Source: Armatimonadota bacterium (GTDB lineage Bacteria > Armatimonadota > DTGP01 > JAKQQT01). From it: DNA of 64,000 nt. The stretch is from positions 1 through 64,000 of the forward strand of contig DASXVS010000024.1 of the NCBI GenBank assembly GCA_036504095.1, read 5' to 3'. This document shows positions 9,108 through 61,746 of this stretch, in pieces. The stretch's first letter is position 1; the number at the start of each line of letters is the position of its first letter. The notes beneath the pieces are model-generated. The model was not told the origin of the DNA, did not search any database, and saw only the letters and a program-made list of their open reading frames with translations. Made by a program: the position numbers and the translations under genes.

Positions 9108-11678
9108 ATGCGACGACAATCCTGGCTGCTCCGGCTCATAGCCATCGCGGCAACTGCGCTCTTCGCACCCGGTGTACGGTGCGCACCGTTCACCGAGAGC
9201 CCCGCCGCGGACGAAGTGTTCTACCAATTCATGCCCATCGCGTGGCGCAACTCGGGTCCAAATGGCGGCCCGGCGAACGCACGCTTCGGCGATTTCAACG
9301 GCATGACGGCTTCGCTGGACTACCTGCAGGGCCTTGGCGTAACCTCCGTCTGGATGAACCCGATCTTCCCATCCCCCGCGTACCACGGGTATCAGTACGG
9401 ACCCGCCGACCGGGTGAATCCATGGTTCGGAACCGAAGCCGAGTTCCTGAATTTCGTCGCGCAAGCGAAACTGCACGGCATCAAGGTCTACATAGATCTC
9501 GTCTGCTACGGCATTTCCACAAACTCCACGTTTTACCAAAGCGCGTACAACAACCCGTCAAGCCCGTACGATGCGTGGCTGGCGTTCACCAACGCCCAGA
9601 ACACTCAATTCACGGGATACAGCTACACAACGTGGAACGGCAGCACCGTCGGATTCATCGACTGGGACCTGCGCAACGCGGGCGCGAGGCAACAGGTCAT
9701 CGATTGGTGCAAGAAATGGCTGGACCCGCACGGCGACGGCACGCTGCGCGACGGCATCGCGGGCTACCGCCTCGACCATGTGCTTGTGAACGGCGACCAG
9801 CAGCCTGCCGGGCTTGGCTACACGATGGCCGGCTTCTGGACGCCGTGGAAGGCGGCGCTGAAGACGGTCAACCCCGATGTGTTCACCTTTGTCGAGCAGG
9901 CGGATTGGGGATCGTTCGGAAACGAGTTCCTGAGCGTTCACGATGCAGCTTTCACAATGCCGTTCATGTTCGCCGCTCGCGACGCTGTGATGCACGAGAA
10001 CGCCACCGAATTGTACCCCAGCATGGCGAGCACGCTATCGGCGCTGAAAGGCGCGGGACAGGGAACCCTGCTCGGGATCATAAACAATCACGACGTCGAC
10101 CGGCTGGCCTCCGCGCTGTATATGACCGGCCCGGAGAATGCCGATCGCACCAAGGCGGCCGCGGCGGTGCTGATGCTCCAGCCGTTCCCGCCCGTCATCT
10201 ACATGGGTGACGAACTGGGAATGACCGGCGTGAAGGGCAACTACGGCAGCGACGCGAACGACATCCCGGTCCGCGAGCCGTTCAAATGGACGGCGGTGAA
10301 CGCCGGCGCCCCCATGAGCAACTATTTCGTGCTCAACTCGGGAGCGTACAACAACCGGTACGAACGCGATCACGATGGCAAATCCGTCGAGGAGCAGCAG
10401 GGCGTCGCCGGATCGCTGCTGGAGACGTATCGCAGCCTTATCGCCCTGCGCAAGAACACGCCGGCGCTGCGACGCGGCGGCTATACGGCCGTGAGCAACA
10501 GTGATTCGCATATCTGGTCGTTCGTGCGGCGCTACGCCCCGGCGGCCGGCGATCCGCAAACGCTGCTCGTGGCGATCAACCTCGGTGGACCCCAATGGAA
10601 CGGCGCCGTGGATATGTCTGGGTTCACGCTCCCAACCGGCGGGACCGGCGTCAAGGATGTGGTTACGGGAGCGGCGCTGGCGGCGATGACCGGCACAAAC
10701 AAGGGCGCTTATCCGGTCTCGGTCGGGCCATACGGCTATCGCGTGATGGAACTGAACGCAACACCGCCGGTGGTGCCGCCCGCGGTTGTGGATGGCATCG
10801 ATATCCCGGCGTCCGTCTCTGCGGCGGCGGTCACGGTAACGCAGGATACCCCGACCAACTTCGGCGACAACGTTTCCGAACTCGACCAGTTGTTCGCCAA
10901 GGGTCAGTCCGACGGACTGCTTGTGGGAATAACCGGGAACCTCGCGACCGACGGCACCGCCCTGGCCGTGTTTGTGGACACAGGGTCGGGAGGGCAGAAT
11001 ATTCTGGACACTTCGACGCTGGCGCCGCCGCCGGGCGGATTGCAGGCGCTGACCGCGCTCAAGATGGACGCCGGATTCTCGCCCTCGCAGTTGTTCTTCG
11101 CGAACACGAACGGCGGAACGCTTTACCTGGACCAGGTGGCACTTCCGGCATCGGGCTCCGGTATCAAGACCTACCGCGGAAACAACGTGGTGAACGGCCA
11201 CTCGGGCACGCTGAGCGGTGGCAGCAACGCGGATGGAATTCAGGCCGCTTTCGACAACACGAATACCAACGGGGTCACGGGAACCATTGCATCATCCGCC
11301 GCAACGGCAACCACGGGCTTCGAGATATTCGTCCCGTGGAGCGCTCTCGGAGTATCATCCCCGATGGGAAAGACGATGCGCATCGCCTCGTGCATCCTGG
11401 GGTCCGACGGGACCGTCAGCAATCAGTGGCTGCCCGGTATCGAAGGCGGCACGGCAAACCTCGGGATTGCGCCGGACCTTACCGGGGTGCCGGGCATGCA
11501 GTTTGCCAGGTTTACCGTCGGGGCTCCGTATGTCGCAGCGGATGCGGTTCACGCGCTTCAGGTTGCCGGAGGCCTGGCGTCCGCGACGGCGGAGGACGCG
11601 CGTCTGGATCTCAACGGCGGCCCGGGCATTGACCTCGTTGACGCCGCCATGGTTATGCGAAAGGCGTTGGGGCTGTAA
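9108..11678 (+). CDS. Secreted GH13 alpha-amylase with carbohydrate-binding-like domain and dockerin-like tail
   Basis: An 856-residue exported enzyme. Residues 1-25 are a signal peptide (SWLLRLIAIAATALFAPG). Residues 30-560 form a GH13 barrel with GYRLDHVL (nucleophile Asp), FTFVEQADW (acid/base Glu) and INNHDVDRL (transition-state Asp). Region I reads VYIDLVCYGIS where most amylases have DxVxNH, so the usual Asn-His pair is missing. Residues 565-800 resemble a CBM9/DOMON-like sandwich. The last 50 residues (HALQVAGGL, then VMRKALGL) look like a degenerate dockerin. An ATG at 9093 is an alternative start; 9108 gives the better signal peptide. The galactanase gene follows after four bases. 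Confidence 0.8.
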   Translation: MRRQSWLLRLIAIAATALFAPGVRCAPFTESPAADEVFYQFMPIAWRNSGPNGGPANARFGDFNGMTASLDYLQGLGVTSVWMNPIFPSPAYHGYQYGPADRVNPWFGTEAEFLNFVAQAKLHGIKVYIDLVCYGISTNSTFYQSAYNNPSSPYDAWLAFTNAQNTQFTGYSYTTWNGSTVGFIDWDLRNAGARQQVIDWCKKWLDPHGDGTLRDGIAGYRLDHVLVNGDQQPAGLGYTMAGFWTPWKAALKTVNPDVFTFVEQADWGSFGNEFLSVHDAAFTMPFMFAARDAVMHENATELYPSMASTLSALKGAGQGTLLGIINNHDVDRLASALYMTGPENADRTKAAAAVLMLQPFPPVIYMGDELGMTGVKGNYGSDANDIPVREPFKWTAVNAGAPMSNYFVLNSGAYNNRYERDHDGKSVEEQQGVAGSLLETYRSLIALRKNTPALRRGGYTAVSNSDSHIWSFVRRYAPAAGDPQTLLVAINLGGPQWNGAVDMSGFTLPTGGTGVKDVVTGAALAAMTGTNKGAYPVSVGPYGYRVMELNATPPVVPPAVVDGIDIPASVSAAAVTVTQDTPTNFGDNVSELDQLFAKGQSDGLLVGITGNLATDGTALAVFVDTGSGGQNILDTSTLAPPPGGLQALTALKMDAGFSPSQLFFANTNGGTLYLDQVALPASGSGIKTYRGNNVVNGHSGTLSGGSNADGIQAAFDNTNTNGVTGTIASSAATATTGFEIFVPWSALGVSSPMGKTMRIASCILGSDGTVSNQWLPGIEGGTANLGIAPDLTGVPGMQFARFTVGAPYVAADAVHALQVAGGLASATAEDARLDLNGGPGIDLVDAAMVMRKALGL

Positions 11679-17830: not shown

Positions 17831-17942
17831 TCACCCGTACCCTGCCCGAACATACGCGTTGCCGGGAAGGCGTTTCACCAGTATTTTGATCTCCAGCCAA
17901 TCAGGGCGCTGGACGCGCGCGGAGCGGGGCAGGCCGTTCTGG
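17831..17942 (-). pseudogene. dprA 3' tail, copy 3 (most distal)
   Basis: Read on the minus strand this fragment encodes LEIKILVKRLPGNAYVRAGYG and a stop, the exact C-terminal end of the DprA protein encoded at 20802-21899. Over the last 66 bases it differs from the native tail at seven positions, six of them synonymous. Further upstream the match weakens and needs a one-base gap. There is no start codon. It shares the bases GCCGGGAAGGCGTTTCACC with copy 2 against the native gene, so it was not copied from the local dprA. Confidence 0.85.
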
Positions 17943-17971
17943 ATGGGTGCGCCCCGATTGTACAAGATGGC

Positions 17972-18877
17972 CTAGTCTCCGCGGTGTGAAGAAAGCGCCC
18001 AAGCTACGTCAATTGATGGGAGTCCCTGTGCCTGCAGTTCCCACAGACGAACGAGAGACGCAGGTTCGCTGATAAGATCGTACGATAGGTCTCCCAAACC
18101 GGCGGCAAGCAGATAGTGCATGTCGTCTGAGAGGTCATCGACGGACTTTCCGTGTTGTTGCAACAGGTGCGCGATAGGTTCGCTGATTGCGACGGCTTCA
18201 ATGTAGTTCCGTTGTTTCTCACTCTTGGCGTCCATCTGGCCGAAAAGATCTTCCATTACCTCTCCCCTACCCGAGACCATCGAAATGTCACCGAATCTGT
18301 CTGATTGGCGCACAGTGGTTCGGTACCCCAAGAGGCGAAACGACACACTCTGAGCAACAGGGCGAGCTAGCAAGCCGTAGACAAGCATAGTACCAATGGA
18401 GACCAACCCCTGCAGGATGCCGCAGAGCGTGAAGCAGGAAATGAAATACACGACGCCTATCATGCCCAGCACCGCATCCACACGGCTCTTGGATCGGCCT
18501 CTCAGGAACCCGTTCAGAACGGATAGAAAGACCAGCGCGGCCAAGAACGCTTGCATCAAAACGAAGAGCGGGGTGATCTTTGGTGCCGGCAATCCATAAT
18601 GTTGGACCAGGTAGTGCGCAAGCCACGCGCACAGGCATGTACCCACGACATCGAAAGGGACCATACCAATGGCGTAGCCAATGAACGCAGGGGCTGAGCG
18701 CTCTGGATGTCCAGCCGCGGCTGCCGTGCGGCGAAAATGCGCTTTTTGAGACACCGTGTCAGCAGCGAAAATAGCAAGTCCGGCGATAACAGCGGGTTCA
18801 AGCCAGGAATCCCTAGCGCTCGCCCCAATGGTGACACCCATGGCGAAAACAAGGACCACAATCTGTAGACACCCCAT
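17972..18877 (-). CDS. Multi-pass membrane protein of unknown function (dprA-array cargo)
   Basis: A 301-residue protein. The first 175 residues contain about five hydrophobic helices (for example LQIVVLVFAMGVTIG, PLFVLMQAFLAALVFLSVL). The last 115 residues are soluble, acidic and helical. I do not recognise the family. It is enclosed by dprA-tail copy 2 upstream and copy 3 downstream (29 bp after its stop), which marks it as cargo of the array. GGGGGGTG precedes ATG 18877. Its base composition is visibly less GC-rich than the surrounding core genes, which fits acquisition from elsewhere. Confidence 0.7.
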   Translation of the reverse strand: MGCLQIVVLVFAMGVTIGASARDSWLEPAVIAGLAIFAADTVSQKAHFRRTAAAAGHPERSAPAFIGYAIGMVPFDVVGTCLCAWLAHYLVQHYGLPAPKITPLFVLMQAFLAALVFLSVLNGFLRGRSKSRVDAVLGMIGVVYFISCFTLCGILQGLVSIGTMLVYGLLARPVAQSVSFRLLGYRTTVRQSDRFGDISMVSGRGEVMEDLFGQMDAKSEKQRNYIEAVAISEPIAHLLQQHGKSVDDLSDDMHYLLAAGLGDLSYDLISEPASLVRLWELQAQGLPSIDVAWALSSHRGD

Positions 18878-19004
18878 CCCAACACCCCCCGGAATTGAGC
18901 CATCAACCTAGCGCTCAGTTAGTGCTAGGTTATCACTACACCGGTCTTCATCACCGTACTCACATCCCAATAATGGCTGCTCGCCACGCGTTAGGCATGA
19001 GGAA

Positions 19005-19031
19005 GGCGCAGAACATTTCAGATTCTGCGCC
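19005..19031. repeat. 9-bp hairpin between membrane-protein gene and dprA tail copy 2
   Basis: GGCGCAGAA at 19005-19013 pairs with TTCTGCGCC at 19023-19031. It is followed by TTCTGCGTGCCTCTGCGG, which resembles the right arm of the palindrome at 29445-29605. The rest of the 18878-19060 stretch shows no gene. Confidence 0.5.
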
Positions 19032-19060
19032 GTTCTGCGTGCCTCTGCGGATAATTCTAC

Positions 19061-19243
19061 TCACCCGTACCCTGCCCTTACGTACGCGTTGCCGGGAAGG
19101 CGTTTCACCAGTGTTTTAATCTCCAGCATCATCAGCGCTGAGGACGCGCGGGGGGCGGGCAGGCCGGTTTGGGCGATGAGGTCCTCCATCTGAACCGGCG
19201 CTAGGCTGAGCGTGTTCCTCTGGAGGCACTTATCGTCGGTCAG
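19061..19243 (-). pseudogene. dprA 3' tail, copy 2
   Basis: This 183-base segment aligns without gaps to the last 183 bases of dprA (20802-20984), with about 23 differences. Over the final 43 codons and stop there are nine base differences, eight of them synonymous and one Ser-to-Pro. The reading frame stays open to the same TGA but there is no start. Similarity ends at the stop codon. It begins 17 bases after the stop of the DUF2971 gene. The pattern indicates that the tail came from a working dprA in another lineage. Confidence 0.9.
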
Positions 19244-19260
19244 AGCCAGTCAATGACTAC

Positions 19261-20160
19261 TCATGCGACTTGCCCAATTTCAAGGTCGTATGTGGTCTCG
19301 CTCAATTTGGCCCTCAAGATACGAATGTGGCTCAGGTCACTGTCGATGCGGAGGCTATCGATGATCTCGGCCTGCTTCCCCTGTGTCATTCGCGGACCCA
19401 ATATCACACCCGTAACAGTCGTAGGCGGCAAATCGAACAAGACGACATCCGGGTCGCTTGCAGATGCGCTGCCATCGGTCAGAAACCTTGGAAGACGCCA
19501 TTCCTGCTCGTATTGCCAGACTTCAGGTTTGGTAAAAAGAAGCCTTTTCCAAGTCTGTTGTTCATCTTCCATATGCGGAATTTCGGGCCTGCCTTTCATA
19601 TAATCGACTGGGCGCAAACCATAAAGGGGATTGCCCGTGTCCAGTCCAAACGTGAAAAAAGGATCGGCGGAGTCAAACTCGAATACTATCCCGCGGCCTT
19701 CGTCACCATAGTGGCTCCACATCAGGTTGTCGCTTGGATTTTGGGTTAACGAAAGCACCCCTACGCTAGCACGAATGCTATCGACCATGAGGGGCTTCAA
19801 GTGTGCTTCTTGGGCCTCGGTTGCCGCAACCCACATCGCCTCGAGGCTATCGTCAAGGAACTTCTCAACGGCGGATGGATCATGGGCTAAGCACCAGTCA
19901 AAGAGTTTGACCCTCTCTTCTGCGTCCGCTGGAGATTCCCCGAGCGCCTGAAAGTACGTTCCTAGCTTGGCGGCTCGTTCTGCAGGAGTACCTACCCGCA
20001 TTTCCTCGAAGTCCCTGGTTTGCTTCTCCCGATCGAGTACTGCGAGAACGAGGGCTTTACCTTCCCAATAATCGTTGAGGAATCTCAATTGCGTGAAGCG
20101 GATCTTCCGCGCATGGAGATCGGCGATCCGGTTCGCCTTAGCGTATTTATAGAGAAACAT
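19261..20160 (-). CDS. DUF2971-family protein (dprA-array cargo)
   Basis: A 299-residue soluble protein. MWSHYGDEGRGIVFEF near residue 150 and KPEVWQYEQEWRL near 218 are the two diagnostic blocks of DUF2971. The family is of unknown function and is often found as a variable accessory gene in bacteria. GGAGGT is directly upstream; the second ATG (20160) gives better spacing than the first (20163). It is followed 17 bases later by a truncated dprA tail. A defence role is possible by analogy with other accessory genes, but nothing here proves it. Confidence 0.8.
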   Translation of the reverse strand: MFLYKYAKANRIADLHARKIRFTQLRFLNDYWEGKALVLAVLDREKQTRDFEEMRVGTPAERAAKLGTYFQALGESPADAEERVKLFDWCLAHDPSAVEKFLDDSLEAMWVAATEAQEAHLKPLMVDSIRASVGVLSLTQNPSDNLMWSHYGDEGRGIVFEFDSADPFFTFGLDTGNPLYGLRPVDYMKGRPEIPHMEDEQQTWKRLLFTKPEVWQYEQEWRLPRFLTDGSASASDPDVVLFDLPPTTVTGVILGPRMTQGKQAEIIDSLRIDSDLSHIRILRAKLSETTYDLEIGQVA

Positions 20161-20242
20161 CATACCTCCGGAATCGGAGCGCTCGGGCTATCGTGAACTG
20201 CGTGCTAGCCAAAGCTCTGCCGTCAGGCAGTCCAAGAAGCGC

Positions 20243-20758
20243 CTACCGCGGCGCCCGAAATACGAGCTTTCCACTCCTGTCGAAGAGGAGAATACTGGTC
20301 TCTGTAGCAATTGTGCCAAGCGTCGCCCTGACCGTCCCGTTCGCATCACGGAGGAAGATACCGTTGGCACCGAACTTGGCTCCGCCCTTCGGATCTTCAT
20401 CCAGGAGACCAAGGACGGGGCCTTCCTTGCCTAAGAAGAGGCCGCATCTGGACGCGCCTTTCGCGTCCAGGAAGTTGAGGCTCGGGCCGTCTTTGGTTGT
20501 GTCAAGAAATGCTCTGGTCTGTCCATTTTCGTCCATGAGGCTAAGGCGGGGACCATGCTTGTCTGTGGTAAGCACAGCACTTCTCTTCCCGTTTGCATTG
20601 ATGACTTCAAACCGCCGCGCCCTTACCACGTTCGGCACAGCCGGTTGCGCCGCCACCTTCGCCGTGACCACGGGCACCTGCCAATGTGCCACCGCGAGCG
20701 CCCACAAGCCACTCCCCAAAAAACCCAACAATACCTTCGTTGCCAAGTCAGTCTTCAT
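20243..20758 (-). CDS. Membrane-anchored beta-repeat protein (dprA-array cargo)
   Basis: A 171-residue protein with one N-terminal hydrophobic helix (KVLLGFLGSGLWALAVA) and then five or six repeats of about 20 residues, each with a pattern like LxDxNGxxRAxL followed by DGPxLxxxD. Such repeats are expected to stack as beta-hairpins. I know of related repeat proteins in environmental bacteria but no function. AAGGAG precedes ATG 20758. It starts 43 bases after the dprA stop and heads the first cargo segment of the array. Confidence 0.7.
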   Translation of the reverse strand: MKTDLATKVLLGFLGSGLWALAVAHWQVPVVTAKVAAQPAVPNVVRARRFEVINANGKRSAVLTTDKHGPRLSLMDENGQTRAFLDTTKDGPSLNFLDAKGASRCGLFLGKEGPVLGLLDEDPKGGAKFGANGIFLRDANGTVRATLGTIATETSILLFDRSGKLVFRAPR

Positions 20759-20801
20759 AGCCGTGTCTCCTTGTTGTCGGTCAAGCTTAGCGCATTGCAT
20801 G

Positions 20802-21899
20802 TCACCCGTACCCTGCCCGGACGTACGCGTTGCCCGGCAGGCGCTTCACCAGTGTTTTAATCTCCAGCATCATCAGCGCGGAGGACGCGCGAGGGGCGGA
20901 GAGGCCGGTTTGGGCGATGAGGTCCTCCATCTGGACCGGGGCGAGGCTCAGAGTATTCATCAGCAGAGTCTCGTCGTCGGTCAGGTCCAGCGGAAGTGGC
21001 AGCGTTTCGGCGGGGGCGCTGGGCAGAGCGTGGGTCGGAACGCCGAGTTCGACCAGCACGTCCTCGTAGGTTTCCACCAGCGCGGCGCCGTCCTTGATGA
21101 GCTGATGGCAGCCGGTGTTCTTGCCGTTGGTGATGTCGCCGGGCGTGGCCATAATGCTGCGTCCCTGTTCGGAGGCGAACGTGGCGGTGATGAGCGCGCC
21201 GCTGGCGACCGGCACCTCGATGCACACGATCCCCAGGCTGAGGCCGCTGATGATGCGGTTGCGCGCCGGGAAGCGCCACGCGTCGGGCTGGGCGCCCAAC
21301 GGAGCCTCCGAGATGACGGCGCCGTTCAGGGCGATCTCGTCCGCGAGCGGGCGGTTCTCGCCCGGGTAGATGACGTCGACGCCGCTGCCCAGCACGGCGA
21401 TGGTGCGACCGGCCTTCAGGGCGCCGATATGGGCCTCGGTATCGACGCCACGCGCCAGCCCGCTGACGATTGTGATGCCGCGGTCCGCCAGGTCCTTCGC
21501 GATGCGGGCGGCGACGGCGCGTCCGTAGTGCGTGCAGCGCCGGCTTCCCACGATGCCGACCGCCATGCGATCGTCCGGGCTCAGCTCGCCGCGCACGTAG
21601 AGCATCACCGGCGGGTCGGCGATGGTTTTGAGCGGGGCCGGATAGGCCGGCGAGGTGAAGGGGATGGCGATCGCACCGACGCGGTCGAGGGCCTCGAGTT
21701 CCCTGGAGACGTCGGTCTGGGACTGTGCGGCCAGAAGGCGCTGGCGCGTGTCCGCATGGAGGTCCGCGGCGGCGTTCCTGAGGTCGGAGGGACTGGCATC
21801 GCGTATGGCTTCCGGCGCACCGAAGTCTTCCAGCAGCCGGTGGGCTTTGGACGGCGGTAGTTCCAACCGGTGGAACCATATCCAGGCGGCGATGTCCAC
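20802..21899 (-). CDS. dprA: DNA-processing protein DprA (Smf)
   Basis: A 365-residue cytoplasmic protein that binds incoming single-stranded DNA during natural transformation and loads RecA. Rossmann-fold motifs are clear: VGIVGSRRCTHYGR, TIVSGLARGVDTEAH, IAVLGSGVDVIYPGENR, ARNRIISGLS and the ATPGDITNGKNTGCHQLI block. A C-terminal winged helix (residues 300-365) ends in KRLPGNAYVRAGYG. Start is GTG 21899. A hairpin terminator isolates it from the upstream PEP-CTERM gene. Its 3' end is repeated twice downstream with accessory genes in between, so the 3' end appears to be an insertion site. No other competence gene is in the window. Confidence 0.95.
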   Translation of the reverse strand: MDIAAWIWFHRLELPPSKAHRLLEDFGAPEAIRDASPSDLRNAAADLHADTRQRLLAAQSQTDVSRELEALDRVGAIAIPFTSPAYPAPLKTIADPPVMLYVRGELSPDDRMAVGIVGSRRCTHYGRAVAARIAKDLADRGITIVSGLARGVDTEAHIGALKAGRTIAVLGSGVDVIYPGENRPLADEIALNGAVISEAPLGAQPDAWRFPARNRIISGLSLGIVCIEVPVASGALITATFASEQGRSIMATPGDITNGKNTGCHQLIKDGAALVETYEDVLVELGVPTHALPSAPAETLPLPLDLTDDETLLMNTLSLAPVQMEDLIAQTGLSAPRASSALMMLEIKTLVKRLPGNAYVRAGYG

Positions 21900-44397: not shown

Positions 44398-46977
44398 CTA
44401 CCGTTGCAGCACATACGCCGTCAGCGGTTCCAGCTTCAGCTTGCCCTGCACCGACCCCGGTTGGCCGGAGCCGGCTCCGCTTCCACCCAAGGCGACCGAC
44501 CATTGCCCGCTGGGCAGTTCGATGTCATCCCTCTGCCGGCTGCCGTGGAGCACCACCAGGATTTCCTTCCACGGGTCGCCCACCTTTGAGCCGTCCAGGC
44601 GGAACGCGACGGTCCCGGGCGGCGTAGTCTCGACCGGCAGGAACGTGAGGGCAGTCTTCACCTGCGTCTTGCTCCACAGGCGAAAGGCGGGATGGGCGCG
44701 CCGCAGGGCGATGAGCCCGCGCAAGTAGTCGTGCATCTCCGCGTACTCGGGGGCGCGCGACCAATCGTACCGGTTCAACGCGTCGCCGCCGTTGTAGGAG
44801 TTGTTGCTCATCCGCTTGGTGCGCCCGATTTCAACCCCGCCTTCAAGGAAGGGAATGCCCTGCGACAAAAGCACCGCCGCGTACGCCAGCCGAACAGCGG
44901 ACTCCCTCGTCCCGGCGTCCGCATCGGGCATACTGAGCGCCACCTTGTCGCGGAAAGTCATATTATCGTGCGCCGAAACATAGTTCAGCGACTCCGCCGG
45001 GGCATCGGCGAAATCGTCGATCGCGCCGGTCACGGCGTTCTCCAGCGACCGCCGATTCACAGGCCCGCCCATCGCGAAGCCCGGCGCCGGACCATCCAGT
45101 TCGCCGCGTACCGTCCCACGGAAATTGTCGTTGAACACCGCGACCGGCGTGCCACGCTGAGCGCCCTTCCCGAAGCGCGTCGGGCCGCCTCCGGTCCACG
45201 GCTCGCCCGTGATAACGGCATCGGGGTTCACCGCGCGGATCGCTTTCGCAAGATCGCGAACGGTTTCCGGCGTGAACATCCCCAGCAGATCGAAGCGAAA
45301 TCCGTCCACGCGGTACTCGCGCGCCCAATAGACCAGGCTGTCGCGCACGAACTTGCGGACCATCGGGTGGTCGTCGTTCATCGCGTTGCCCACGCCGGAC
45401 TCGTTCAGCACGTCACCACGGTCATTGGTCCGGAAGTAGTAATACGGCACAGTCTGCCAAAACGCCGACTGGTCGCCCTCGCTGGGAACTGTGTGGTTGT
45501 ACACCACGTCCATGATCGCCCCGAGGCCGGCGCGGTGGAAGCCGATGAACATGCTCTTGGCTTCGCGGATGGCGGCCAGCGGATCCTCGCGACGGACGGC
45601 GTATTGCTCTTCCGGAACGTTGAAGAGCGTCGTCTCGTAACCCCAGCCGTACATTTCGGAATGCGCCGGGTTGAAATCCTGCATGGGTAGAATCTGGACG
45701 TGGGTAACGCCGAGGCCCTTCAGGTAATCGAGGCCCGTCGGGAAAGCCGTGCCGGGAATTCGGGACCCCTTCTCAACCATACCAAGGTATTTGCCGCGCC
45801 ACTCCGGCTTGACACCGCTTTGGGGATCAATCGTGTAGTCGCGGACGTGCACTTCGTACACAACGGCGTCCGTTGCCTTCCGGCCGGCAAATGGCCGCTT
45901 CCCGGGCCACCCCGGGGGATTCGTCCGGGAAAGATCTACGACAATGGACCGTTTCGCGTCGGGACTGGCCGCGTAGCCGTTGATGTCCGCTGCGATTCGC
46001 TCGCCACCGCGCGACTCGAAACTGTACTGGTAATACGCGCCGTGAAGGTCCCCGCGCACTGTGGCGTACCACACGCACGCGGGAGAGCGCTTCATCGCGA
46101 TGGTCCTGGCAGTCGGCGATTTCGCCGAGCCGAACAGCAGCAGGTCGGCGCGCTTCGAAACGGGGCTCCAGACCTTGAATGTGGTACAGGCCGCCGACCA
46201 CCGCGAGCCCAGATCCGTGCCTCGATAGTCGAAAATTGGGTTGGACAGGACCTCGCGCGCGAAAACCGGCCGCACCGGATCGTCACCAACCTGCACAGTC
46301 ATCGTCTCAGCCACGTCCTGCGGTTTGAGCGGATCGGCAAGAATCACATGGAATGACTCGTAGGCCGCCTCCTGCGCGGAAGCGGGCACATTGATCAGGA
46401 CGGGCAGCGAATCCGGAGCAGCCACCTCCGCCGGGTTGTTAATGGAATCCCGGATCGTCCTGTGCTCAAAATCTACGACAAACCGGACAATGCGCTCCGA
46501 AGGCACATCGATCGGGATGTTGGCGCCGTGGTCCGCAAAGCCGGCCCCGTAATTCTCGTCCCAACTCCCCCCGCGGGCGACCTTGTACTCGTAGTGACCC
46601 GCGCGAAGTTTCACTACCAGTTCGAAGACGTTGTCGCTCGAGTGGAACATGCCTCCGGTGGCGCCGGTCGGATCCCATTCCGTGCCGCCGAGCGCCGCCT
46701 GGATTGTCCCCACCACCACAACCTTGTTGGGATCGCGCCCCGTGCCGGCCTTCTGCGCGCCGACGACTTCCTTGACCGCGGCCTCCTTGCCGGCGACGCG
46801 CACCCGGATGCGACCGGCAACGTCCCCAACCTTCGCGGCCTGCGGAATCCAGACGGTGATCTCATCGAACTTGTCCAGGAACGCCGGACCGGACCACGGT
46901 TCCGCCGCAACTGCGGCGCCCTGCGCGAAAGGCGCCGCCACGATGGCACAGGCAAGCGAGCAAACAACGGATTTCAT
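44398..46977 (-). CDS. Secreted pullulanase (GH13, type I)
   Basis: An 859-residue exported debranching enzyme. After the signal peptide (SLACAIVAAPFAQGAAVAA), residues 30-300 hold accessory starch-binding-like sandwiches. A CBM48-like segment (TTFKVWSPVSKRADLLL) precedes the GH13 barrel. Motifs: MYGWGYETTLFNVPEEQY (the pullulanase YNWGY motif), DVVYNHT, GFRFDLLG (nucleophile Asp), ITGEPW (acid/base Glu) and YVSAHDNMTF. It hydrolyses alpha-1,6 branches. AGGAGAAG precedes ATG 46977. A broken paralogue of its 5' end lies at 50069-50254. Confidence 0.9.
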   Translation of the reverse strand: MKSVVCSLACAIVAAPFAQGAAVAAEPWSGPAFLDKFDEITVWIPQAAKVGDVAGRIRVRVAGKEAAVKEVVGAQKAGTGRDPNKVVVVGTIQAALGGTEWDPTGATGGMFHSSDNVFELVVKLRAGHYEYKVARGGSWDENYGAGFADHGANIPIDVPSERIVRFVVDFEHRTIRDSINNPAEVAAPDSLPVLINVPASAQEAAYESFHVILADPLKPQDVAETMTVQVGDDPVRPVFAREVLSNPIFDYRGTDLGSRWSAACTTFKVWSPVSKRADLLLFGSAKSPTARTIAMKRSPACVWYATVRGDLHGAYYQYSFESRGGERIAADINGYAASPDAKRSIVVDLSRTNPPGWPGKRPFAGRKATDAVVYEVHVRDYTIDPQSGVKPEWRGKYLGMVEKGSRIPGTAFPTGLDYLKGLGVTHVQILPMQDFNPAHSEMYGWGYETTLFNVPEEQYAVRREDPLAAIREAKSMFIGFHRAGLGAIMDVVYNHTVPSEGDQSAFWQTVPYYYFRTNDRGDVLNESGVGNAMNDDHPMVRKFVRDSLVYWAREYRVDGFRFDLLGMFTPETVRDLAKAIRAVNPDAVITGEPWTGGGPTRFGKGAQRGTPVAVFNDNFRGTVRGELDGPAPGFAMGGPVNRRSLENAVTGAIDDFADAPAESLNYVSAHDNMTFRDKVALSMPDADAGTRESAVRLAYAAVLLSQGIPFLEGGVEIGRTKRMSNNSYNGGDALNRYDWSRAPEYAEMHDYLRGLIALRRAHPAFRLWSKTQVKTALTFLPVETTPPGTVAFRLDGSKVGDPWKEILVVLHGSRQRDDIELPSGQWSVALGGSGAGSGQPGSVQGKLKLEPLTAYVLQR

Positions 46978-50068: not shown

Positions 50069-50254
50069 TAACGGCGTGAATTGCATTCGGCGCCCAAGCC
50101 GTGATCTCGTCCGGCTAATCGAGAAACGCGGGCCCGGACCACGCGTCGCCGGTATTGGGGGCGGCCCAAGCGAAAGCCGCCGCCACGATGGCACAGGCAA
50201 GCGAGCAAACAACGGATTTCATGCCGGGTGTTCTCCTGGGGAGCGGGAATGCGG
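50069..50254 (-). pseudogene. Broken 5' end of a second pullulanase gene
   Basis: From ATG 50222 on the minus strand the frame reads MKSVVCSLACAIVAA, then FAWAAPNTGDAWSGPAFLD and a TAG stop, where the intact pullulanase has MKSVVCSLACAIVAAPF and WSGPAFLDKFDEIT. After the stop PDEITAWAPNA still matches. The upstream ribosome-binding region is nearly identical (50223-50254 compared with 46978-47009). Only about 60 codons remain. Upstream to 50434 there is no other gene. Confidence 0.85.
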
Positions 50255-61524: not shown

Positions 61525-61746
61525 CTAAGAGTCCCGCTCCGTCCAACCCCAGATGACGATGGCGATTCCCATGGTCACCCCAAGAGCGATTGCCAGGGAG
61601 ACCCAGTCTTCCCAGCGGCCCCGCCAGTGTCGCAGGGATTCGTTTATGTAACCGGTCCGGCCGCACCCGGGCGTGAGAAAGAACAGCCCGAAGAACACGG
61701 CGGCTCCGGCTGTGGTCACAAATATGCGGTTTCGCACGGCCATCAT
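61525..61746 (-). CDS. Small membrane protein of unknown function
   Basis: A 73-residue protein with two membrane helices (AAVFFGLFFLTPGCG and LAIALGVTMGIAIVIWGW) around a short soluble loop. GGAGG precedes a double ATG. It starts 46 bases after the GH32 stop and might be its partner, but no family is recognised. Confidence 0.55.
   Translation of the reverse strand: MMAVRNRIFVTTAGAAVFFGLFFLTPGCGRTGYINESLRHWRGRWEDWVSLAIALGVTMGIAIVIWGWTERDS

Follow-up and report, generated by a model that had tools for sequence, protein, structure and literature searches.

Diverged copies of gene 3' ends behind small foreign-looking inserts at dprA and 13 other genes of an Armatimonadota genome

In the genome of an Armatimonadota bacterium the 3' end of dprA is followed by two further, diverged copies of itself with small foreign-looking genes in between, and the same structure recurs at 13 other genes, with no tyrosine recombinase in any of the inserts. 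The dprA array lies in the window, by which is meant the whole 64,000-nt stretch of DNA that was analysed. The explanation that we modestly favour, as somewhat likelier to be right than wrong, is the repeated integrase-free insertion of ~1-kb pieces of foreign DNA, each anchored by homology to the tail of an orthologue.

The array behind dprA

The complete dprA gene, whose codon score is typical for the genome, is accompanied downstream by two extra 3' ends (87% and ~85% identical to the native end) with cargo between them, as a sequence-only reading of this DNA had claimed (Table 1). Copy 2 closes a segment with a beta-repeat protein and a DUF2971 protein and copy 3 one with a membrane protein, the gene content that had been described; for the membrane protein the codon model favours a later start (17972-18664). 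All three tails are terminated by the same TGA, at which homology ends, and 11 nt separate the stop codon of the DUF2971 gene from the start of copy 2. In a whole-genome search the tail match has an E value of 1e-60, which is far from chance. On the far side of the outermost tail it is adjoined by a gene for a DUF433 protein (PF04255; 17557-17763, minus strand). An attC-like GCCTAAC near position 18990 was dropped as a chance occurrence, with no partner site found by eye.

Table 1. The dprA gene, its tail copies and the intervening cargo (positions in the window)
Feature	Position	Strand	Description
dprA host gene, complete	20802..21899	minus	365 aa; PF02481 (4.6e-72) and PF17782
dprA native tail	20802-20990	minus	last 189 nt of the gene
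Cargo 1a, beta-repeat protein	20243..20758	minus	171 aa; N-terminal hydrophobic segment; no Pfam match
Cargo 1b, DUF2971 protein	19261..20163	minus	300 aa; PF11185 (4.6e-7, 31.5 bits)
dprA tail copy 2	19061..19249	minus	last 63 codons; 189 nt, 86.8% identical, ungapped
Cargo 2, membrane protein	17972..18877	minus	301 aa; in Pfam only a sub-threshold TauE match
dprA tail copy 3	~17831..17942	minus	111 aligned nt, 84.7% identical

The divergence of the tails follows the reading frame. Copy 2, for which a gap-free match of 183 bases had been given, is ungapped over 189 nt and differs from native dprA by 16 synonymous and 6 non-synonymous codon changes, with five non-synonymous changes in its first 11 codons, a part outside the earlier count; for the last 43 codons that count, eight of nine changes synonymous, is exact. 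Copy 3 is the most decayed of the three tails, with two 1-nt indels that compensate each other upstream of a well-kept last 66 nt, and in its last 22 codons six of seven changes are synonymous, again as counted before. The three bases that copies 2 and 3 were said to share against the native gene are also present (AAA, CTT, CCC). The synonymous bias supports the proposal that these tails diverged inside working genes and not through local decay, and serial insertion at the dprA 3' end is likewise supported. No integrase had been visible to the first reading, and a search for PF00589 returned no match on the dprA contig, the 11 matches of the genome all lying on other contigs.

Tandem DprA tails were found in no other genome among 291 of the phylum, 271 of which have a DprA winged-helix match, and the same module at dprA was not found in any relative searched. 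Two candidates were rejected as tail arrays: a split dprA (G019), in which the split coincides with a masked stretch of the assembly, and an orphan winged-helix match (G201) with no evident DprA likeness. The dprA tail had no match in IMG/VR viral contigs, the membrane-protein cargo had none in plasmids, no donor genome was found in the searches made, and the literature held nothing relevant on dprA as an integration site. In the sole same-family genome compared (G001) the region downstream of dprA is unrelated to that of the window, and dprA is about equally distant from all tail copies, giving no rooting.

Tail copies across the genome and in relatives

A scan of 2.12 Mb in stretches, 45% of the genome to which the window belongs, took in 1468 genes of at least 120 aa, called by a codon-usage score trained on the same genome. 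For the first, middle and last 150 nt of each, the first and middle parts serving as controls, sequence up to 10 kb away was screened for further copies, and matches of at least 41 bits in non-coding DNA were counted. Copies of the last 150 nt, downstream on the same strand, numbered 15. The copy at dop, which the gene calling had taken for a small ORF, brings the total for the 2.12 Mb to 16, distributed over 14 genes. Contig C47 is rich in repeats, and its matches, one such tail copy among them, were excluded from the counts. The mirror control, gene starts copied upstream on the same strand, yielded 2 cases against the 15 tails (P 0.0012), and both of these also repeat promoter-side DNA. In one, the start of an 859-aa gene of the window (44398-46977, minus strand) is repeated together with its upstream DNA at 50101-50254 (minus strand), 3.1 kb upstream and at ~84% over 155 nt; in the other, the gene upstream of leuD on contig C69 of the same genome (58595-59887, minus strand) has its start and the ~60 nt before it copied at 61529-61571, 1.6 kb upstream. 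The same scan recovered the known e14/icd tail of E. coli, used as a positive control, once the flank was widened to 20 kb; within 10 kb, the 350 kb of E. coli scanned held no tail case, and 400 kb of two other Armatimonadota held one. The rate of 15 in 1468 genes compares with 1 in 561 for the comparison (Fisher P 0.04), an excess that is suggestive, not firm.

The hosts were identified from their translated sequences, and most are core genes with no relation to one another: dprA (two copies), a phosphotransferase gene before mnmE, aroF, the adenosine deaminase gene add (two copies), a pectate-lyase-like gene, mfd, a nitrite/sulfite reductase gene, leuD, nadE, a xerC-like gene, dop, aspS, thiC and ksgA. 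Because the identical structure stands at 13 other genes, dprA can no longer be regarded as a special target, and its role in DNA uptake, offered earlier as a reason for targeting, is probably irrelevant. The tails are ~80-95% identical to the host ends (95% for the ~320-nt copy at dop) and start between -38 and -334 nt, with no common junction sequence between genes. Tandem arrays occur at dprA and add, and the two add copies start at nearly the same base (-54 and -55), which hints at a site preference. The 16 copies together show 168 codon changes, of which 111 are synonymous (66%, against 24.7% expected; P 1.3e-29), and therefore the ends diverged in working genes of different lineages. A further thiC tail on contig C56 of this genome (45175-45438, minus strand; 95% identical over 88 residues) could be the continuation of the thiC array across a contig break.

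The inserts are mostly small, 13 of the 16 measured distances falling between 0.65 and 1.8 kb and that behind aspS reaching 5.2 kb, and cargo stop codons often stand only 6-35 nt ahead of the tail. The insert ORFs are foreign-looking by their atypical codon scores (a median of 0.105 per residue, where all genes have 0.226 and the hosts 0.292; P 6e-11), and what the inserts hold are such genes and not remnants of the host genes. A paralogue of the beta-repeat protein behind dprA is encoded on contig C69, in the insert that follows the nitrite/sulfite reductase gene, so that one cargo family is found with two different tails. SUKH, nucleotidyltransferase, PLD and leucine-rich-repeat proteins are also among the cargo. 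PADLOC links two of the cargo proteins to candidate phage-defence families, the DUF2971 protein with a match to PDC-S31 (1.8e-29) and the nucleotidyltransferase with one to PDC-S09, and finds a likeness to DrmC in the PLD protein; these are matches at the level of families, and any role in defence is putative. Mobility genes were absent from the insert ORFs examined, part of which were searched against Pfam. PF00589 was found inside none of the inserts, and its only match near a tail copy is a host gene itself.

Comparison with relatives reveals one empty site: in G001 the end of leuD lies ~57 nt before a ferritin-like gene, and in the window's genome the two are separated by 782 nt, a leuD tail copy and a further ~500 nt. 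Conserved flanks with different content between them are also seen, in part, at mfd/uppS. A genome of the same class and another family (G002) has a short second copy of both aspS and thiC downstream on the same strand, and among 71 genomes such tails of aspS and thiC were confined to this genome and that of the window. A search in four relatives for tail copies of ~25 core genes, each on the gene's own contig, returned only the aspS copy of G002 again. An orphan 65-aa frame on contig C170 of G001 (11298-11429, minus strand) matches the end of a tyrosyl-tRNA-synthetase-like gene, the full gene of which is on a different contig.

Capture by homology and its alternatives

Under the favoured reading foreign DNA would have entered at the dprA 3' end on two occasions or more, each of them recorded in the array. 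Each incoming DNA would have borne an orthologous dprA 3' end and whatever lay behind it; pairing by homology inside the tail would have given the resident 5' part a new 3' end from the incoming DNA, leaving dprA intact, with the cargo next and the displaced former 3' end outside it as a short scar. The outer copy is thus probably the resident end and the end in use the one that came with the cargo, an order favoured by the mnmE locus (one locus only), where the mnmE start codon lies within the outer tail copy of the preceding phosphotransferase gene. The earlier proposal that the outer tails came in with the cargo may therefore have the order reversed. The nearer copy of the add array has an in-frame stop and is more decayed than the outer one, which argues against a simple order in which the outermost is oldest. 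The same process would have acted at no fewer than the 13 other genes, with no need for a recombinase encoded by the element.

The likeliest chemistry would be RecA-dependent integration of taken-up ~1-kb fragments, and the genome has both comEC and dprA, which counts for capture with competence as a putative trait. If the fragment was circularised, a single crossover would yield exactly the observed product without deletion. The other possible route is homology-facilitated illegitimate recombination (HFIR), with the second junction inside the same gene. In HFIR one homologous anchor leads to the insertion of ~1 kb of foreign DNA, usually with deletion of ~1 kb of the recipient (PMC3240628). 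The single anchor, an insert size near 1 kb in agreement with that source and the lack of a carried recombinase are common to both, but the resident tails are retained here and the bias to gene 3' ends is strong, and the usual deletion would count against HFIR at these loci; HFIR products feature 3-10 bp of microhomology at the illegitimate junction. The 3'-end bias (15 against 2) and the shortness of the tails also run against plain homology capture, which predicts neither. A candidate account is that long direct repeats may be prone to self-deletion and that harm may come from truncated gene starts.

Gene 3' ends are usual targets of integrases, and the bias would be explained if the inserts were remnants of elements of the e14/icd type that carried a substitute 3' end and later lost the integrase and most of their genes. 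The e14/icd tail is built in the same way and was recovered by the same scan, and both add copies begin at the same place. Even so, 14 targets would need 14 integrase specificities, the inserts are mostly just 0.65-1.8 kb, the junctions lack shared sequence and no insert has a tyrosine recombinase; the number of targets, the junctions and the missing recombinase make an integrase origin unlikely.

Still less probable is an unrecognised system acting in trans that puts small cassettes at gene 3' ends, an integron-like device that lacks a common attC and recombines at the gene tails. Its specific form, in which a dedicated recombinase would insert small cargo (some of it phage-defence-like) at the 3' ends of many core genes in this Armatimonadota class, a gene-specific tail restoring each, is doubtful to the same degree. 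The cassette-like size, the arrays at dprA and add, the strong 3' polarity, the short spacing between cargo stops and tails and the occurrence in two families of the class are all consistent with such a system, but the tails share no site sequence, no candidate enzyme was identified, and diverged tails would still call for an orthologous donor, something already built into homology capture.

The tail-flanked modules might also have formed elsewhere and have arrived only by homologous exchange between flanking genes, like minimal mobile elements, and the conserved flanks (with leuD empty in a relative and the mfd/uppS content differing) and tails as alike as those of related species agree with this. 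Exchange accounts for spread and not for the first origin of the tail copies, however, and as the same module at dprA appears in no relative searched it is very improbable as the whole explanation; capture by homology may be followed by ordinary recombination that spreads the modules among relatives. Local tandem duplication of the host gene with decay of all but the tail, which would suit the tandem, same-orientation tails and the long, closely similar dop copy, is close to refuted by the mostly synonymous divergence (P 1e-29), by inserts devoid of host-gene remnants and by the lack, among the 291 phylum genomes searched, of the complete tandem dprA that the earlier reading had set as its test.

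Relation to known systems and significance

The structures described here resemble e14 at icd of E. coli K-12 (icd/icdC) in that insertion is at the 3' end of a core gene, a substitute end is provided and the diverged, displaced end lies beyond. That restored target is seen at dprA and 13 other genes; an integrase of the insert's own is not, by the PF00589 search, and e14 is a 15-kb element with integrase and excisionase, whereas these inserts are mostly 0.65-1.8 kb, recombinase-free by that search and distributed over 14 genes. In integron arrays small foreign genes follow one another in tandem and a repeat-like stretch closes each of them; the dprA array shares this arrangement, but its closing stretch is the tail of the host gene itself and differs from locus to locus, and the window's contig has no PF00589 gene. 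The minimal mobile elements of Neisseria are whole-gene cassettes between conserved genes that have no mobility genes and move by homologous recombination (PMC3082526). Conserved flanks around varied or absent cargo are seen here at leuD/ferritin (empty in G001) and in part at mfd/uppS, and at dprA the region downstream is unrelated in the relative; the diverged tail of one flanking gene sets the present cases apart, and the definition given in PMC3082526 is silent on tails.

What is new is that the pattern is genome-wide, 3'-polar and integrase-free; in kind it is a variant both of the gene-restoring insertion already known and of exchange resembling that of minimal mobile elements. Some of the cargo proteins match candidate families of single-gene phage defence. 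Through the 3'-end bias, a decision between homology capture and a targeted mechanism is open to direct test. If the pattern is general, such scars would be a simple footprint by which gene gain unaided by mobile-element enzymes can be read from one genome alone, and would show both the site of each gain and the divergence of its donor.
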